From positions 4,801,196 through 4,865,195 of the forward strand of contig OZ025874.1 in NCBI GenBank assembly GCA_964019415.1: a stretch of 64,000 nt of DNA, given 5' to 3'. Both the position numbers and the translations under genes were made by a program. The notes beneath the pieces were generated by a model. It saw only the letters and a list, made by a program, of their open reading frames with translations. It was not told where the DNA came from and did no database searches. This DNA is from Ianthella basta. Taxonomy: Eukaryota > Porifera > Demospongiae > Verongiida > Ianthellidae. This document shows, in pieces, positions 7,179 to 36,300 of this stretch (the first letter of the stretch is position 1; each line of letters begins with the position of its first letter).

Positions 7179-7627
7179 TCTATCTTATTATAATAAACGT
7201 AACGCACAATTTCGTTGTTTGGGATATACTCATTCAGATCTGGACGGAATGTCACGAAATGCGGTAAGATTATGAAGAAGCTTAGTGTGAGTAACCTTGT
7301 TCCGTCTGAGTTCTTGCCACTTTAATGGTCGCCACCATATCTAAGATATAGGGAAAAGATCGTGTTTCATTGTCCAGAAACTCCTTCAACTTTCCACCAA
7401 ACTTAATAGAGCACATCACGGCAATATGGGGGGTGATCTAAGGTGGTTAGCACCTTTGCCACTGAATTTTAGATGAGACGAATTAACAAAAATAAATTCT
7501 GTACACATGGAGTTTTGGGAGCGAGTCTACGGAATGCTCCCAAATTTATGTATGGTTTTGATTGGTTAAACACTCAAATTACGAACCATAGACTGGGAAC
7601 CCACCCAAAGGGCGGGCATTCAGCTAG
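7179..7627 (+). mobile_element. Putative non-autonomous Helitron
   Basis: The right end reads GGGCGGGCATTCAGCTAG followed by T. That is a GC-rich potential hairpin shortly before CTAG at an A/T-type target, as Helitrons have. The end closely matches the Helitron that disrupts the Harbinger transposase (ends 32990). A candidate 5' end is A|TCTATCTTATTATAATA at 7178/7179, but this start is a guess. It has no protein coding, as expected for a short Helitron derivative. Confidence 0.45.
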
Positions 7628-27300: not shown

Positions 27301-30300
27301 CAGATGACTATGTCCTGCCTGGCCTGGGCTCGCCACAACGGCTCTTTGACCCCCGAGTCATCCTCTTGAAGTGTACCAACTCCAGAACAGGACTCCTCCG
27401 ACAAGGTAGTCCCCCTGGCTGCACTCAGCCTGCCCATGGGGCAGGGCCTAGCCCACATACACAGACCCTGACCAATTGACCCTCGTGCCCCCCATCAAGG
27501 CTGGTGTGGCTGACTGCCGTAGCCTGAGATATCCACCCCCCTGTGACTGTCGTGACTGCCGTCACAGCCTCTGTGGGGTCGTCAGGGATCTGGGAGACCT
27601 CATACTTTGCAGTTGCTGAGGGCTTCATGCCCCCGACTGGTACACACAGTCCATAACAACCTCAATAGTTCACATGACTTTCATTCCATCTGCCGATATA
27701 TGTTTGTCCCCAGTGCAAGTGGCATGCCCTGCTATCTGGTAAGGTTTTACTGGGAACCGCCCGTAGGTGTCCCTGATCATCTCAGGGGCTACTTGTTCCT
27801 GAGAGAGGCCACCCCTGCGTGGATCAGCCACAATATGTAAGCAACCTCCCATGTTTGCCACTGGATGGCCACAGCGCGTATGCAACCCCGATGCATATCA
27901 TGGACTATATTATCCTGCTAAGCACGTTTCCGCCAGGGCATCCCAAGTGCCTGAAACAGTTATATGGCTTCGCCGTAGTATTTTGTAACTTGCACTGTAT
28001 AAAGACCACTAGCGTAAGTTGCAGAGGTTACCACCATGAATGCATGTAGATTGTTTGCACTAGTTGATGGAATTTAAGAATGCCACCAGTGCAAATTGCT
28101 GAAGGACAATGTGACTGGGCACCAGCAGCAAAGTCTGGATAGTCTTTTTCTTCAACCATTGAGCGCATTTACTTTCTGGCACATGTGGTGGTGGGAGTGG
28201 CGAGTGTGCTGTCATGGGCCTACTGTAATTTGCACTGGTGGTCTTTTTCTATGACCAACTAGTGCAGATACTCTACTGGCACATGTGGTGGTGGCTACTG
28301 TAACTTGCACTGGTGGTCTTTTTCTATGACCAACTGGCGCAGATACTCTACTGGCACAGGTGGTGGTGGCTGCGATATTGTAACTTGCACTGTGTGGTAG
28401 TGGTGGCGGTGGTGTTCTTTCTAGAGCAATGGCGCATATACTGAATGCATGTTTTGTAACTTGCACTGTGTTGGTGGTGGTAGTGGTGGTGGTGGTGGTC
28501 TTTTTCGTCTAGGAATGCATGTGGTGGTCATAATATTGTAACTTGCACTGTGTGGTGATGGGGGTGGTAGTACTTTTCTAGAGCATTGATGCATATACTA
28601 AATACATGCATTCACTGCATTGTAACTTGCACCGTGTAGTGGTGGTGGTGGTGTTTTTTTTTCTTCTAGAAATGGCTGTGGTGTCCTTAGTATTGTCACT
28701 AGCACTATGTGATGGTAGTGTTAGCATGGACTAACAGCACTTGATGTGGTGGTTTGTTTTCTTGCAGCTCTGGCACATAATATACTGGGGTGGTTTTTTG
28801 ACTGCACTGTGTGGTAGTGGTGGTGGTGCCAGTCATTTTTCTAGAGCTCTGGCACATATACTGAATTAAGTAATCCCGCTAATAGCTTAGGTAGATGGGC
28901 CACTTGGACTTGTTCACCAAGTTTCATGCGCCAGCGAACCCAGTTGCATTAATATACTAAGTACCCCTATGCATCAATATGAATATACCATACATCAAGT
29001 GTTATGCTATGCACATTTATATTAGCACTTCTCAGGCTGCTTGTAGAAGAGCAAAGGTCTAAATAAAGATCTGCCAAATTTAATAGTTCTAAAAATTGGC
29101 CATTCTTCCTAGGCACACCTAGTGCATGCACATGAGGGCCTCCAAATCCCCAGGACATTATTTATATTATTTAATTATTAATAATTTATTTATTTACTAA
29201 TAAGACCACCAGTGCAAGTAACAGCAACCACCACCACCACACAGTGCAAGTAACAATGGGACCACCACTGTTGCAGTAGAGTAAATGCAGTAGTTGGAGG
29301 TAGAAAAGGCCACCTGTGCAAGTAACAGAGGGTCAGAACCTCATATGCCACTGGAGTAAATGCACTAGTTGGTGGCAGAAAAGACAAGAAACACAAGGAA
29401 CAGAGGGTCAGGATCACATGTGCCCTTAGACTAAACAAATTGCAATTGGAATTGGAATCAGAAATGCTATTAACAAGCATGTGGGGAATCCTTTTAGCCA
29501 GAAGGCTACTCTTCCAGCAGCCCACAATACACACGACTTACACAAGCAATTCAGTAAGTCAGAGTACATTGGTTTCTGTTCAGTGGGCAATGTTTGTTGT
29601 TAGAAGGTGTAGTCACTGAAAATCTTGCCGCCATGGCCTGGGCGTGATCGATTGACATCCCATAATCTCTGGCTTTTGAACCTTGTACCTTGCACTCTAG
29701 CCCACCAGCCCCTCCCCCAAACCCTACCCAATTAGTTGGTGGTAGAGAAGACTACCATGCATATACAGCGCAAGTTGCAGAGGGTCAGAACAAGCATGAG
29801 CACAATTGGAGTGCCCGATATGCAGCAAGCAATTGTTACTTGCACAAGGGCAGCAGCAATTAGTAATTCTTGTATATAGACATTAAATGGGCAAGGTACA
29901 AGGTTCAAGGTAACTTCTTTGTTGTCCAGATTTAGCTGATGAGTGCCACCAGGGTGATTCTTTGGCCCATGCTCAACATTGGTAACACACTCAATAAGTG
30001 TGCCAGGCTGTTTTGGGTTAGGAACAACTTTGAACTGAAACTGTGAAAGTTTCAGGGTTCTGTGCTCTGCACCACCACGCAAAATCAAGTGCAGCCCATT
30101 GTAAAAGAAAACAGCATTGAGGAGTGACTTTGCATGGCCAACACCAACAACACCTGCTGACCAAAGGATTTCCTCATCTTCTTTAGATAGCGTTCCTGCC
30201 TGATGCGGAACTGCTCCAGCTCCTTGCCCATGTAAAGAACGAGAAACAAGGTGTTTAGAGTGTGATGTAAAGGCTTAAAATTTGGGTGCTTGCCATCCAC

Positions 30301-33300
30301 GATGGAAACTGTGAGTGATTTTGTAACATAGTGTAAGATAGCAATAACAAGGATCTAAAGGCATGATTGACAGGACAAGACAGAAGGGCTGATAGCAATA
30401 ACAAGGATCAAAAGGCATGATTGACAGGACAAGACAGAAGTGCTGAACAACACCAGACAACTGACATTGCATGATCAGAACACTTTGTATATAAGCTTTG
30501 TATCTGAGCAGATTCAAGGTGTGTGTCTCATTGAAGCCCTAATCTATATCGAGTCCATTTGTCGTCAAGTTGCCCGAACAAGATAATCCTGTTACAGTTT
30601 CTCAGTCCGAATGTGCCGCTGAATTCCTACAAGAATCTGCATTAGGCGGCGTTCACACTACGGTAGAAATGACGGCGACGGTACGGTCACGTTTCGTCGT
30701 TCACACTTCACATTACGTAACGTGGCCGTGACCGTGGGCGGGAACGTCACCGTGGCAATGGCCGCCACAGTGACGGTTACGATGACGGCAATCGAAGGTG
30801 TTATTCAGCGAAGAAGCGAGCGATGGCAGCTAAGGGCAAGAAGCCAAGAGTACAATGGGATTCGGAAGTCGAAAGACAGTTGATAGACATCTGGGCGGAC
30901 ATCCTCGAGGAATTTGGCGGGAAAACAATCACGAGGAAGAAGAAAGAGGCAATCGCGACCACCGGCCTGAACGTTTATGTGTCTGAGGAGCTCAGCAAAG
31001 CTGAGAAATACACGGAGAAGGAAGTTTGCAACAAGATTGACAGCATCTTGAGGAAAGGAAAGAGTACGTACATGAATTACCAGAAGAAGGGGGAGACAGG
31101 AAAAGAATATACGCAGGATGAAGCCGATTTGGATATGGAAGCTGCAGAAGTCCACTGGCCTAACTTTAAGACGTTCTATGAACGTTTCAAGGATCATCCT
31201 GCGTTGGGCCCAGGATCGGTGAATGACACAGCAGTGACCCCCATTGCCACAAGAGAAGAGGTTGTGGAGCAGGAAGGAGACGTTTCCACACCAAGCAGTT
31301 CTAGATGCCCAAGCAGGCAGTCAAACAAGAGCATCAGTGCCGATACTGATAGCGAAGAGGAGGAAGATGAAATTCCTATTCCTGCTAAGAAGGCCAAAGG
31401 CGAGGAAACACCACTTGTTGCCAGGGTTGGGAAGTAGAAGGTTAAGCAGACAGGAGCAACACAGTTCCTTGTAGCATTTGGTGAGCTGCAGGAACAGACT
31501 CAGATGAAACAGCAGGAGCATGAGCGCAAGATGCAGCAAGAGTCAATGGCCTTCCAGCAAAAAATGGAGCAGGATAGGATAAAGTTTGAGGCAGAACTTT
31601 CAACAAGTCTGCAGCAGCAGAGCAGCCAGTTTCAAGCTAACTTGATGCAGCAAAACCAACTTTTTCAAGCTGAGTTATTCAAGAAATTGTTCGAGAAAAA
31701 AGACAACTAGCTAGGTAATTTCAGACTATAATTGTGCTGTCTTCAAGACTTTTATTGAAACACTTATATATTACATAATTATTATTACAAGGCTTATTAC
31801 CATTGCTCATATTCATGTGCACTGTAATTTCTGTATTATTGATGTAGCTATATATACCATGCAGTGGAAGTTGTTCATCAGATAATCACTGTGGGGCTGG
31901 CCTGGTGCGATGAATATGTCTTGCAAGGGCTCCTCGAACACTGGCTGCTGATCCAATTACTGCAGTCACTTGCAAATTGGGTGGGGTGGTGTCAATGTAG
32001 ACACTTTCATCAGGAAGCCAACCAGGCTCAAATGGGCATTGGTATCTTTCACAAGCATTGTGCAAGGCACAACAGACCACTGCCACTTGCCGTACAAACA
32101 CTGGGTCCTTTATTGTGCATTTCCCATCCATAATTTTCCATCGCCCGTTCAACCTGCCAAATGCTTGCTCCACTACTCTCCTTGTACGTATCAGACTGTA
32201 GTTGAAGCTGCGTCTGTAGGCAGGTTGGCCCACATCGTAGCACTTCATACAAGATGCCGAGAGGGTAAAAGCAGAGTCTGCTACAAGGAATGGCTTGATG
32301 TTCACTCCTGCAATGGACCTTGTAGGATGTGCCAGCCACTCGCCACTTTCAATTTTCTGGTGCATGATGCTGTTTCGATACGCATAGGAGTCACCTACTG
32401 AACCAGGCCTACCAGCATTGACATCCTACTATAATTCACGGGATCTAGAATTTGGATGTATGTTTGTTCAGCCATAAAATCGGCGCCTTGCCGGGAATCG
32501 GCTCGAGACGCTCCATGCCTGTTGATGAACTCGGGGGACATGTTCTTAGCGGGGTGCCGTTCGCCTAGCTGCCTTGCGGCCGAAAAGCGAGACGTCCTTC
32601 GTCAATTCTCCGCGGGCCGACACGTCATTTTTAACATTATCAACTGGCCCTTCCACTACCTGTCATTGGCGTACTTGATACGAGGCATGCCAGTTAAGGG
32701 AGTTGGAGGACATGAGCTTAGAGGGGTGTCGTTCACCTAGCTTCCCTGCAGCCGAAGAAAGTGCTTCCTTTTTTCCCGCGGGCCGAGACGCCATTTTTAA
32801 TTATTGGTTTCTGGGACTTACGGTTATGGAAAATCTTATTCGTTGTCGGCAAACGTTCGAATTAAACTCTACCGTCGTTATAGCAGCCAGCCTCCGTTGC
32901 TACCTGTGCAGATAGTTCAAAACTGGCAAGGTACCGACTCACTGGCTTGCGATAAGCTGGAACCTGCCCGTAGGGCGGGCATGCAGCTCGTAGGTGAAAA
33001 TTCCCCTTGCATCTACACAGGCTAGGACAATGATGGCAATGAACTTCTTATAGCAGAAGTAGGTGTCCCCAAACTCTGATGGCTTTTTCATAGGCATGAA
33101 TGTACCATCCAAAGCACCACCACAGCATGGCAACCCACACAAGGCTTCGAAATCTATCATTACACGATCCAACTCTTGTCCAGTGGGGAATAGAATTACC
33201 TCTGGAACAAGTCTTCATGTACTACCACAGCAACCGTGGACTTTCCAATGGCATACATAGCTGCCAGTTCAGAGAAGCTGCTGGCTTGAGCTAGCCAGTG

Positions 33301-36300
33301 CAAAAGAATGGCCATTCTCTTTGCTGGGACAAGTGGTCGTCGCAATTGGGTAGTTGCCTTGCTGAAATGCTTGCCAAACGTTTGACAGAGATACCAGAAG
33401 GTATCTTTTGACATCCTGAAATGTTGTAGGTAGCAATTTTCCTCCCAGTCGGGGTAAATCTTCCCCATGTTCCGCCACAAGAGACACACATCCTTCTCCC
33501 AGAAGCCCTGCTCTCGAGGTGCTGCCCAAAATCTCCTCGGAGCTCGAAGAGAGCAAACCATGTCCTGAAAGGGAGGCAGAACCAAGAGCGAAGACCAAGA
33601 AAGCAGACGCGACAATGATCCACGGCTGCTGGGTGGACGGTGCTGGTCCAAAACGTTGTAGGAGAGACTGCAAAGATGAATTCTTTGAGCGCGGAAAGTG
33701 CTAGACGGCTGCGCTAGCGAGAAAAGGGTGATCCACACAAGTACAATATCCACGGTAGCCATTTTTCCTTCATTTACCATGGATAGGTGAACGGTTTTGT
33801 TTTCTACTGTCACTGTCGCCGCTACCGTCGCCGTCATTTCTACCGTAGTGTGAACGCCGCCTTATAGACTTGGAGTGTAGGGATGTCCGTCTTCTTTCCT
33901 TGCTTCGTTGCAAAAATGCACAACCAGTGACAGAGGGATCTGTTACCATCAGTGAGTAGTATCTGGTCGCTACACAAACCATCAGGAAAATGCTCATTCC
34001 TCTGTTGTCACCAGGTATGAAAGGTACAAACTGCCCATTCAGTACACCTTTTGGTGTTCTCTGGTACAAAACCTTCTTTTCCTTTCTTAACAGCTTCTGA
34101 AAAACAACTGGAAACCTTTCTCCTAGAGGCACTTTCTGTTTTTTCAAACACAAGGCTTTTGTCCGCTTTGCTTCATGCTCGACATTCTTCTGATTTTCCA
34201 TTACAGTTCTTCCATCCCTTTAACTCTGTCCACAACTGCGGTGAAATGCCGCCAAATCTAACTGCACATGCGTACACAGGGTACTTATACATGGAAACCT
34301 GCAGTTGGCTGCAAGGTGTGGATAACTGTGAAATTTTTCCTATCAGCATCTTTTAGCTATGATGTCACATGACATCACTTCCCAATGCAGTGCATTTTTA
34401 CAGGTTGAGCCAACATTTCCCTCAATAATTGCTCTTGGACTCCAGCAAACAGTATAGCAACTCTACCAAAACGCAAAGAACACATTTGTTCTGAGAATAC
34501 ATCCTTATATAATGAGTACAGCAGCAGTACCAGTCAAAAATGACACCTACCAAGCATCAACATCAGGAAATGTAAGGTAAAGTAGGGGTTTTCCGAACAA
34601 GATGGGGTTTCCGAACACTGCGCCGCGCTCCATCTGCATTCGAAGGAACAGCTTCTCGTTGTGTCAGTTTATACATTGACTCTTGTGCTAACTGCATACA
34701 GAAATGGAAGCTGTTCTACTGAGTGCAGGTGAAACGCGACGCCCTGTTTGGAAACCCGTCTTGTTCGGAAACCCCCTCCCCTACCTTAGCATTCACAAAG
34801 ACTGAACTCACTTTTAGACATGATTCACTCTTTCATGTGCTTAGAAGGCAATCTTAAGCTATTTGCAGTTGAATTGAATAATCTGATCGCTCCGTAAACT
34901 ACGTTTTCAGCTCCTCTTTGGCTTCGATTCAATTGCCATCTTCAAAGGTGTCACATTTCTTCCTCAAGCATACTGTCGGTATTCTATTCGCCTTGTCTTG
35001 TATAGCAATGAGCGCACTTTAGTATTTGATAAGTCAAATGGAAAACAAGCATACACGGAATGAAATAAATGAAGTTTAAAAAGGTGCAAAATGGCTGGCA
35101 TATTTACTGTTTCCAGTTATAACCACCCTGTGTAATTGATAAATTCCTTTGGAAATGGCACACAAAACAATTGCATCATCTTGTGATGTTTATTGTAAGA
35201 AAATGGCCGTAGCCCTACTATTGTGAAAAGCAGGATTTCCAGTCTTTATAGTGGTAAGCTGTAAACATCACAACCATATGTAAGAGTTGCCAGTAGAACT
35301 CAAAGATTAGTGCATTTGGCTATTTGGAGATTAGCCCGGATTTAGGTGGCTACACATCTTCTTAGAACGTTTAGCAAGTTTGAGGTGCACCTGAGCTTCC
35401 ATTGCCGAGAAATCGTCAGTTGAATGTAGCTGACTCACCATTTTATTTATATACGCAGAATATGAAATAACAATTAAGAATGGCCACTCCGCCGTAACTC
35501 CTGACGAATTAGGTCTCATTTCGTACCGTATTGATGTTCAATAGAGCTATAACTGTGGAAATCGTCCACTCTAGTGAGAATGAAGCCTTCAGCAGAGTGA
35601 AGCTCATGTTACACTGGCCGAATGTTCCAGTCAGCATTGGGCAAGTGGTCTTCGAAAATATGAAACCAAGGGCGACTTTTGCAGCCAAAAGGTACAAACT
35701 GTAGTTTACATAATGCAGAAGGCATGCCTTATCCAAGTGCATTTACTTAAAGGGTTTGAAAATGTCGTTCAGTGGTACTTTCCATCCCTTCAATGTTGCC
35801 GATTTTCGGCGGCCATTTTCGAATTACATGGATTTGCGCTAATCTTCGATTTCTACTGGCGATTCTCACATATGACATATATATTATGAAGTATAGAAAA
35901 GCGGTTGATATGCCAAATAGCGGGTCTTGGCACTCGGGCGTTTTAAATATTGACCTCTGTGCTTCGCACCTCGGACGATATCTGAAAGCCCTTGGCCTCG
36001 ACCCGCTATTTGGCATATCAACCGCCCTTCTATGCTTTATACTAAACATAATATGTTTAGCTACGGTTGTACATCGATACCTACATCTATATTGAATGTA
36101 TTGGGCAAAGTATTGGGTATAGGGAATATATATTGTATGCCATTTTATTTGGCCGGAACTGGACCGTGTGCGAGACCAAGGGACTTTCAAAGCTGGCTTC
36201 TAAATGTTGTCTTAGTGAACTTTTGATGTCTTCTTCTGCTGCTAATTGTGGAACAGACTCCTACAGCACTTCTGGTCGAGGGGCAAAGAGACAGCTTCAA

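Follow-up and report, generated by a model that had tools for sequence, protein, structure and literature searches.

A three-layer nest, consisting of a Helitron within a PIF/Harbinger transposon within the decayed coding region of a DUF3504 gene (Crypton-type tyrosine recombinase), was confirmed in a 64,000-nucleotide (nt) stretch of the Ianthella basta genome (the window) through a comparison of every layer with related copies from the same 209-Mb assembly of 96 contigs. Three successive insertions, first of a Crypton-type element, then of the Harbinger, and finally of the Helitron, are very probably the best explanation. The Helitron came later than the Harbinger, as sister Harbingers show empty sites, and the Harbinger is placed after the DUF3504 gene because this gene is split. 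The relative order of the three element classes proposed in a preliminary description of this DNA was thus borne out. Nested DNA transposons are common, and the nest as such is therefore an ordinary finding. Its value lies in showing to the letter what a Helitron site looked like before insertion, as ten sister Harbingers preserve the empty target, which makes the target choice of a Helitron transposase testable from sequence. A literature search for such a nest returned no paper that united all four search terms.

The Helitron and its empty site

The inserted element at positions 32424–32990 (plus strand) is a non-autonomous Helitron of 567 bp with a 5' TC and a 3' CTCG, assigned as such because it is a dispersed repeat at an A|T target and is absent from 11 of 11 sister Harbingers examined. 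Its 3'-terminal hairpin at 32955–32988 (plus strand) had a predicted DNA folding energy of -11.9 kcal/mol (z -3.36), and none of 200 shuffled sequences folded as well. No long RepHel-type open reading frame (ORF) was found in the 567 bp. The earlier assignment of this stretch within the transposase gene to a Helitron agrees with the TC, the hairpin, the A|T target, and the dispersed copies.

A genome search with a 538-bp query from the C-terminal part of the Harbinger transposase gave 40 matches, namely the window itself, 11 full-length copies at 96–97% identity, two partial copies at 96%, and 26 copies at 69–74%. The check for the insert covered the 11 close full-length copies, the two partial and 26 distant ones being left aside. 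None of the 11 carried the insert, and base 32423 joined base 32991 directly in every one of them. The insert thus comprises 567 bp and came without a target duplication; its ends can be shifted by one base, since T occupies both 32424 and 32991. The empty site was read letter by letter in ten of the copies, L017 being left out because of its incomplete right end. The order of the Harbinger and Helitron steps can therefore be read directly from the empty Harbinger site, as can the exact ends of the insert.

In the window, the flanking peptides GIFTY (32990–33004) and VNAGRPGSVGD (32390–32422), both on the minus strand, are separated by the insert. The claim that its removal restores the transposase frame at an A|T junction held true in L019 and L020, the copies with full translations, where the frame runs unbroken across the site and reads GIFTYVNAGRPGSVGD. 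A separate deletion of about 264 bp, just past the insertion site, is common to L015 and L016.

A position inside the transposase frame would also be expected if the 567 bp were an intron or belonged to the normal make-up of the Harbinger family, and copies lacking them do read through in frame. This explanation is hardly conceivable, however, in view of the lack of the insert in the 11 close copies, the presence of the same sequence, over 555 bases or more, at 40 other sites, with A|T in 28 of the 29 parsed copies, and minus-strand junctions lacking an initial GT. We therefore rejected it for the 11 copies examined and regard the 567 bp as a Helitron.

The Helitron family

Searching the genome with the 567 bp gave 46 matches, which is a lower bound because 40 of 733 first-look candidates were scored. 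At least 41 of them, including the window copy, covered at least 555 of the 567 bases, so that the element exists at no fewer than 40 other places. From the window and 27 loci, 29 copies were parsed, allowing up to six mismatches to the 30 end bases of the window copy. All 29 start with TC; 26 end with CTCG, L008 and L076 with CTAG, and L081 with CTCA. In the wider Helitron family, CTAG was present at 83 of the 100 listed 3' ends (of 243 in total). An A precedes and a T follows the insertion in 28 of the 29 copies; the remaining one stands second in a head-to-tail tandem. The six nearest copies are 1.8–2.5% different, and the window copy deviates from their consensus at 9 of 567 positions.

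Such tandems were found at L066 and L078, where a 3' end is joined straight to the next 5' TC. An insertion into the 5' end of a resident copy was considered as their origin and dropped, as that end has T at the ninth base, unlike most targets; rolling-circle multimers would fit better for this reason. Head-to-tail Helitron tandems have been published for plants and bats (PMC5876387).

A nearly fixed base in the Helitron target

To describe the target, we used the 26 non-tandem copies (the window, L002–L008, and the set from L063–L082) that remained after both L066 units and L078 had been dropped. The ninth base of the 3' flank (+9) was A in 26 of 26 copies; in the window, it is position 32999 within the target at 32991–33001 (plus strand), which is also found in the empty sites. 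Among the same copies, A at +8, A at +10, and T at +11 each occurred in 17. Positions more than 25 bases away had a mean of 0.10 bit and a maximum of 0.33, and an unexplained nearer signal was seen at -10 (0.54 bit), -3 (0.63), and +25 (0.45). As a background, A is found nine bases after AT in 2785 of 9521 cases in the window and in 11519 of 40278 cases in the loci examined (about 29%).

A genome-wide tally at +9, for exact 3' ends followed by T, gave A in 243 of 279 cases and another base in 36; the window copy itself deviates from the exact pattern. Of the 36 non-A ends, ten resemble the 5' start of another Helitron and thus look like tandems. Duplicated loci inflate these genome-wide counts, but the distinct octamers among the ends listed (100 of the 243 and all 36), 71 with A and 28 without, are still far from 29%. 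A at +8 is also present in 54 of the 71. As the A at +9 already exists in the ten Harbinger empty sites read to the letter, it belongs to the target DNA at this locus and not to the element. A similarity of the target motif to the 5' end of the element (TCCTACTATAAT) was considered and dropped: TATAA from +5 to +9 occurred in 7 and TAA from +7 to +9 in 27 of the 71 listed octamers. Another 3' end of the wider Helitron family lies at 7601–7627 of the window, where CTAG is followed by TATATATAA, again with A at +9.

It looks like this family has a sharper target rule than usual. We lean slightly towards the view that its transposase reads a second, spaced target feature, centred on a near-invariant A that lies on the 3' side, nine bases from the insertion point, and usually comes with A at +8. 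Such a feature might reflect the RepHel protein touching the target strand at a fixed distance. Helraiser is reported to insert at AT with a preference for AT-rich surroundings of about 20 bp that is most pronounced 3' of the insertion (PMC4778049), and wheat Helitrons target AT dinucleotides as well (PMC13286980). The text of these two sources that we could draw on, with logo figures outside its scope, describes no fixed base at +9, which leaves its absence from the literature unproven.

The Harbinger copy and its relatives

The PIF/Harbinger element that received the Helitron extends from 30645 to 33861 (minus strand) and was recognized by its terminal inverted repeats (TIRs), TTA flanks, 11 other copies, and a DDE_Tnp_4 transposase. 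As previously described, the 39-bp TIRs at 30645–30683 (plus strand) and 33823–33861 (minus strand) are exact reverse complements (39 of 39 bp), and TTA is found at both ends (30642–30644 and 33862–33864). The transposase is encoded on the minus strand and a putatively Myb-like gene on the plus strand. This second ORF (30721–31710, plus strand; Myb/SANT-like at most weakly) is split in the window copy by a stop at 31435–31437, and its match to Pfam Myb_DNA-bind_4 (E 0.079, 13.8 bits) is below the 27-bit cut-off. The C-terminal part of the transposase (31889–32425, minus strand) matched DDE_Tnp_4 with an E of 4.8e-17. The middle part with the start of this domain (32942–33214, minus strand), whose last codons (32942–32990) fall within the Helitron, gave an E of 3.5e-4 and 20.7 bits, under the cut-off of 24.8. 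An N-terminal part in another frame (33199–33861, minus strand) had no Pfam match at E 1 and has the same reading as the N-terminal portion of the transposase frame that is open in L019. By the frame change near 33196–33214 and the stop in the second ORF, the window Harbinger is broken independently of the Helitron.

In the left part of the element, nine of the ten copies compared are 0–0.7% apart and L010 is 2.6–2.7% from these nine; the window copy is 3.8–3.9% from the nine and 4.6% from L010. In the right part, the nine are 0–1.1% apart and the window copy is 3.7–5.4% from them. With 78 private substitutions in 2650 bases (51 in 1779 and 27 in 871), the window Harbinger ranks among the older copies by this measure of sequence divergence, even though its TIRs are identical, and identical TIRs are no proof of youth.

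Open frames were surveyed in seven Harbinger copies. L011, L014, L019, and L020 have a transposase frame of 476 amino acids and a second frame of 329, and L012 combines a 421-amino-acid transposase frame with a second frame of 329. L010 has a transposase frame of 428 amino acids and a shortened second frame, and L016 carries the deletion mentioned above. The second ORF is a single open frame of 329 amino acids in six of the seven. As L011, L012, L014, L019, and L020 are near-identical (0–0.7% in the left part) with open frames, the Harbinger family has moved recently.

The flanks of the ten other copies with both ends parsed are matching TTA or TAA in six cases and non-matching in four. The mismatched flanks (TTA/TAA or TAA/TTA) are those of L013, L018, L019, and L020, all of which are near-identical copies. 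mPing with non-matching TTA/TAA-type flanks has been assayed in yeast (PMC4561436).

The outer DUF3504 layer

For the outer layer, 22 proteins served as tblastn queries, taken as the longest frame of each of 20 DUF3504 loci together with L054 and L022, not all of these frames being DUF3504. Similarity to DUF3504 at E of 0.01 or better was confined to 29807–30312 (14 queries) and 33861–34088 (6 queries), on either side of the Harbinger. Two other weak hits near 20.6 kb came from L051 and L052, whose frames appear un-DUF3504-like by eye. On the left, the remnant at 29894–30312 (minus strand, 14 of 22 queries) contains the first half of the catalytic domain with LRGGAEHRTL, and the frame at 29735–30274 matched the Pfam domain with an E of 6.9e-14. 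Directly adjoining the Harbinger, a probable further remnant at 30607–30641 (minus strand) with the segment MQILVGIQRHIR had weak matches; its peptide ILVGIQRHIR (30607–30636, minus strand) gave a best E of 0.038 with the sister protein of L047. On the right, the N-terminal part of the gene at 33861–34088 (minus strand, 6 of 22 queries, best E 1.1e-7) has an internal stop and frame changes, and EARKEDGHPYTP (33871–33906) and LHSKSI (33863–33880) lie in different frames of the minus strand. These three peptides, as well as the two beside the Helitron, are all located as first described.

The remnant is disrupted by a stop (FHTW*QQRN) and frame changes. No C-terminal catalytic half could be found in the window, and only the region around LRGGAEHRTL is kept of the R-H-R-Y recombinase. 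In sister proteins (L033, L037, and L043), HSLR, GHRS or GHKS, and a following Y were read by eye. DUF3504 had 86 genome-wide matches, among which four locus pairs are 92–97% alike over 1.4–2.0 kb. Pairs such as L033 and L034 (96.9% over 1978 bp, on different contigs) demonstrate the dispersal of these genes, as expected of Cryptons.

The view that the Harbinger landed in a Crypton-like DUF3504 gene was thus upheld as far as protein matches on both sides are concerned, but what is left is a truncated and frame-shifted remnant for which the flanks gave no empty site. The right flank has DNA matches beyond itself from 34273 on only, and those of the left flank are one fragment at 83% and a high-copy repeat. 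The limits of 29845 and 34201 given earlier for the nest proved not to be element boundaries. In principle, two unrelated DUF3504 fragments could flank the Harbinger by chance. The different frames of the two sides, the gap of about 330 bases between the strong left match and the Harbinger, which holds just one weak short match, and the missing empty site would all be in agreement with this. As the matches are on one strand and collinear in sister proteins (L038: residues 90–162 on the right side and 199–305 on the left), and as the right match extends to the Harbinger end, we consider a chance arrangement quite improbable and favor a single gene that was split. In any case, this level of the nest is weaker than the Helitron level, since an empty DUF3504 site was not recovered.

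It could also be that the Harbinger hit a resident, domesticated DUF3504 gene and not a Crypton element. DUF3504 has been found in domesticated animal genes (Kojima and Jurka, PMC3212892), and no element ends were found at the locus. However, the 86 matches include dispersed near-identical pairs, and L033, L037, and L043 keep HSLR, GHRS/GHKS, and Y, whereas most of the R-H-R-Y tetrad is absent from domesticated DUF3504 genes according to the same source (Kojima and Jurka, PMC3212892). A resident gene is therefore unlikely, and the DUF3504 gene was presumably part of a mobile Crypton.

With regard to the ends of such elements, the boundaries of the four locus pairs were inspected, and in L033 they fall in TA repeats. 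Inverted repeats at 11 DUF3504 loci were considered as possible TIRs and rejected, being mostly local hairpins. L033 is flanked on either side by TA simple repeats (5 of 17 pairs listed), no inverted repeats were found at L035, L036, and L045, and L042 has a single distant pair of 27 nt. At L034, L037, L038, L040, L041, and L043, a hairpin with arms of 41–58 nt is located beside the DUF3504 gene.

Two further repeats are found in the neighborhood. A high-copy repeat at 29600–29892, close to the end of the DUF3504 remnant, has copies that are mostly 82–86% alike, many of them with an inverted second copy alongside. The segment 34573–34788 resembles a miniature inverted-repeat transposable element, with 37-bp inverted ends including TAA and TTA, and one half of it matches many places at 92–97%. 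A search of the window with Rfam at gathering scores gave no matches.

Discussion

In the proposed course of events, a Crypton-type element with a tyrosine recombinase (DUF3504) would have been present at the locus first, and its decay or truncation may have occurred before or after the next step. A two-gene PIF/Harbinger would then have entered the DUF3504 coding sequence with a duplication of TTA. Finally, the 567-bp non-autonomous Helitron would have entered A|T within the Harbinger transposase gene, leaving its target unduplicated, and its mobilization in trans would have been the work of a RepHel transposase encoded elsewhere. The 49 genome matches to Helitron_like_N (Rep), three of which lie in open frames of 1435–2581 amino acids, are in line with this. 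As the coding frames are broken and the Helitron has no coding frame of its own, all three elements are presumably inactive at this locus.

Several results weigh against this scheme. With respect to the enzyme, the family ends were absent from the 20 Rep loci examined for an autonomous partner, and none of the 100 listed exact 5' ends (of 112) was located in the upstream 30 kb of any Rep match (49 in total). The 3' end of the window Helitron is CTCG and not the canonical CTRR, an end for which CTTG exceptions are in print (PMC4778049). With respect to the outer layer, the DNA search of both flanks found no empty DUF3504 site, and the locus comparisons established no shared ends of DUF3504 elements. 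The suggested dating by divergence gave the expected direction, with 78 private substitutions in 2650 bases of the Harbinger versus 9 in 567 between the Helitron and its nearest group, but this agreement with the insertion order is not significant (Fisher p 0.086).

Compared with known systems, the middle layer resembles PIF/Harbinger elements in its TIRs, the 3-bp TTA/TAA duplication, the DDE_Tnp_4 transposase, and a weakly Myb-like second ORF; no structural difference was found, and the non-matching TTA/TAA flanks in four of ten parsed copies are a feature seen here. The outer layer shares the DUF3504 domain and a dispersed multi-copy family with the CryptonA tyrosine-recombinase elements, from which it differs as a remnant whose later catalytic part was not found and whose ends are not established. 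The innermost layer agrees with the Helitrons of bats (Helraiser/Helibat) and wheat (Xuan-Feng) in the 5' TC, the hairpin before the 3' end, the A|T insertion without duplication, and the head-to-tail tandems, and it differs from them by the CTCG 3' end of this subfamily, the wider family having mostly CTAG, and by the near-fixed target base at +9.

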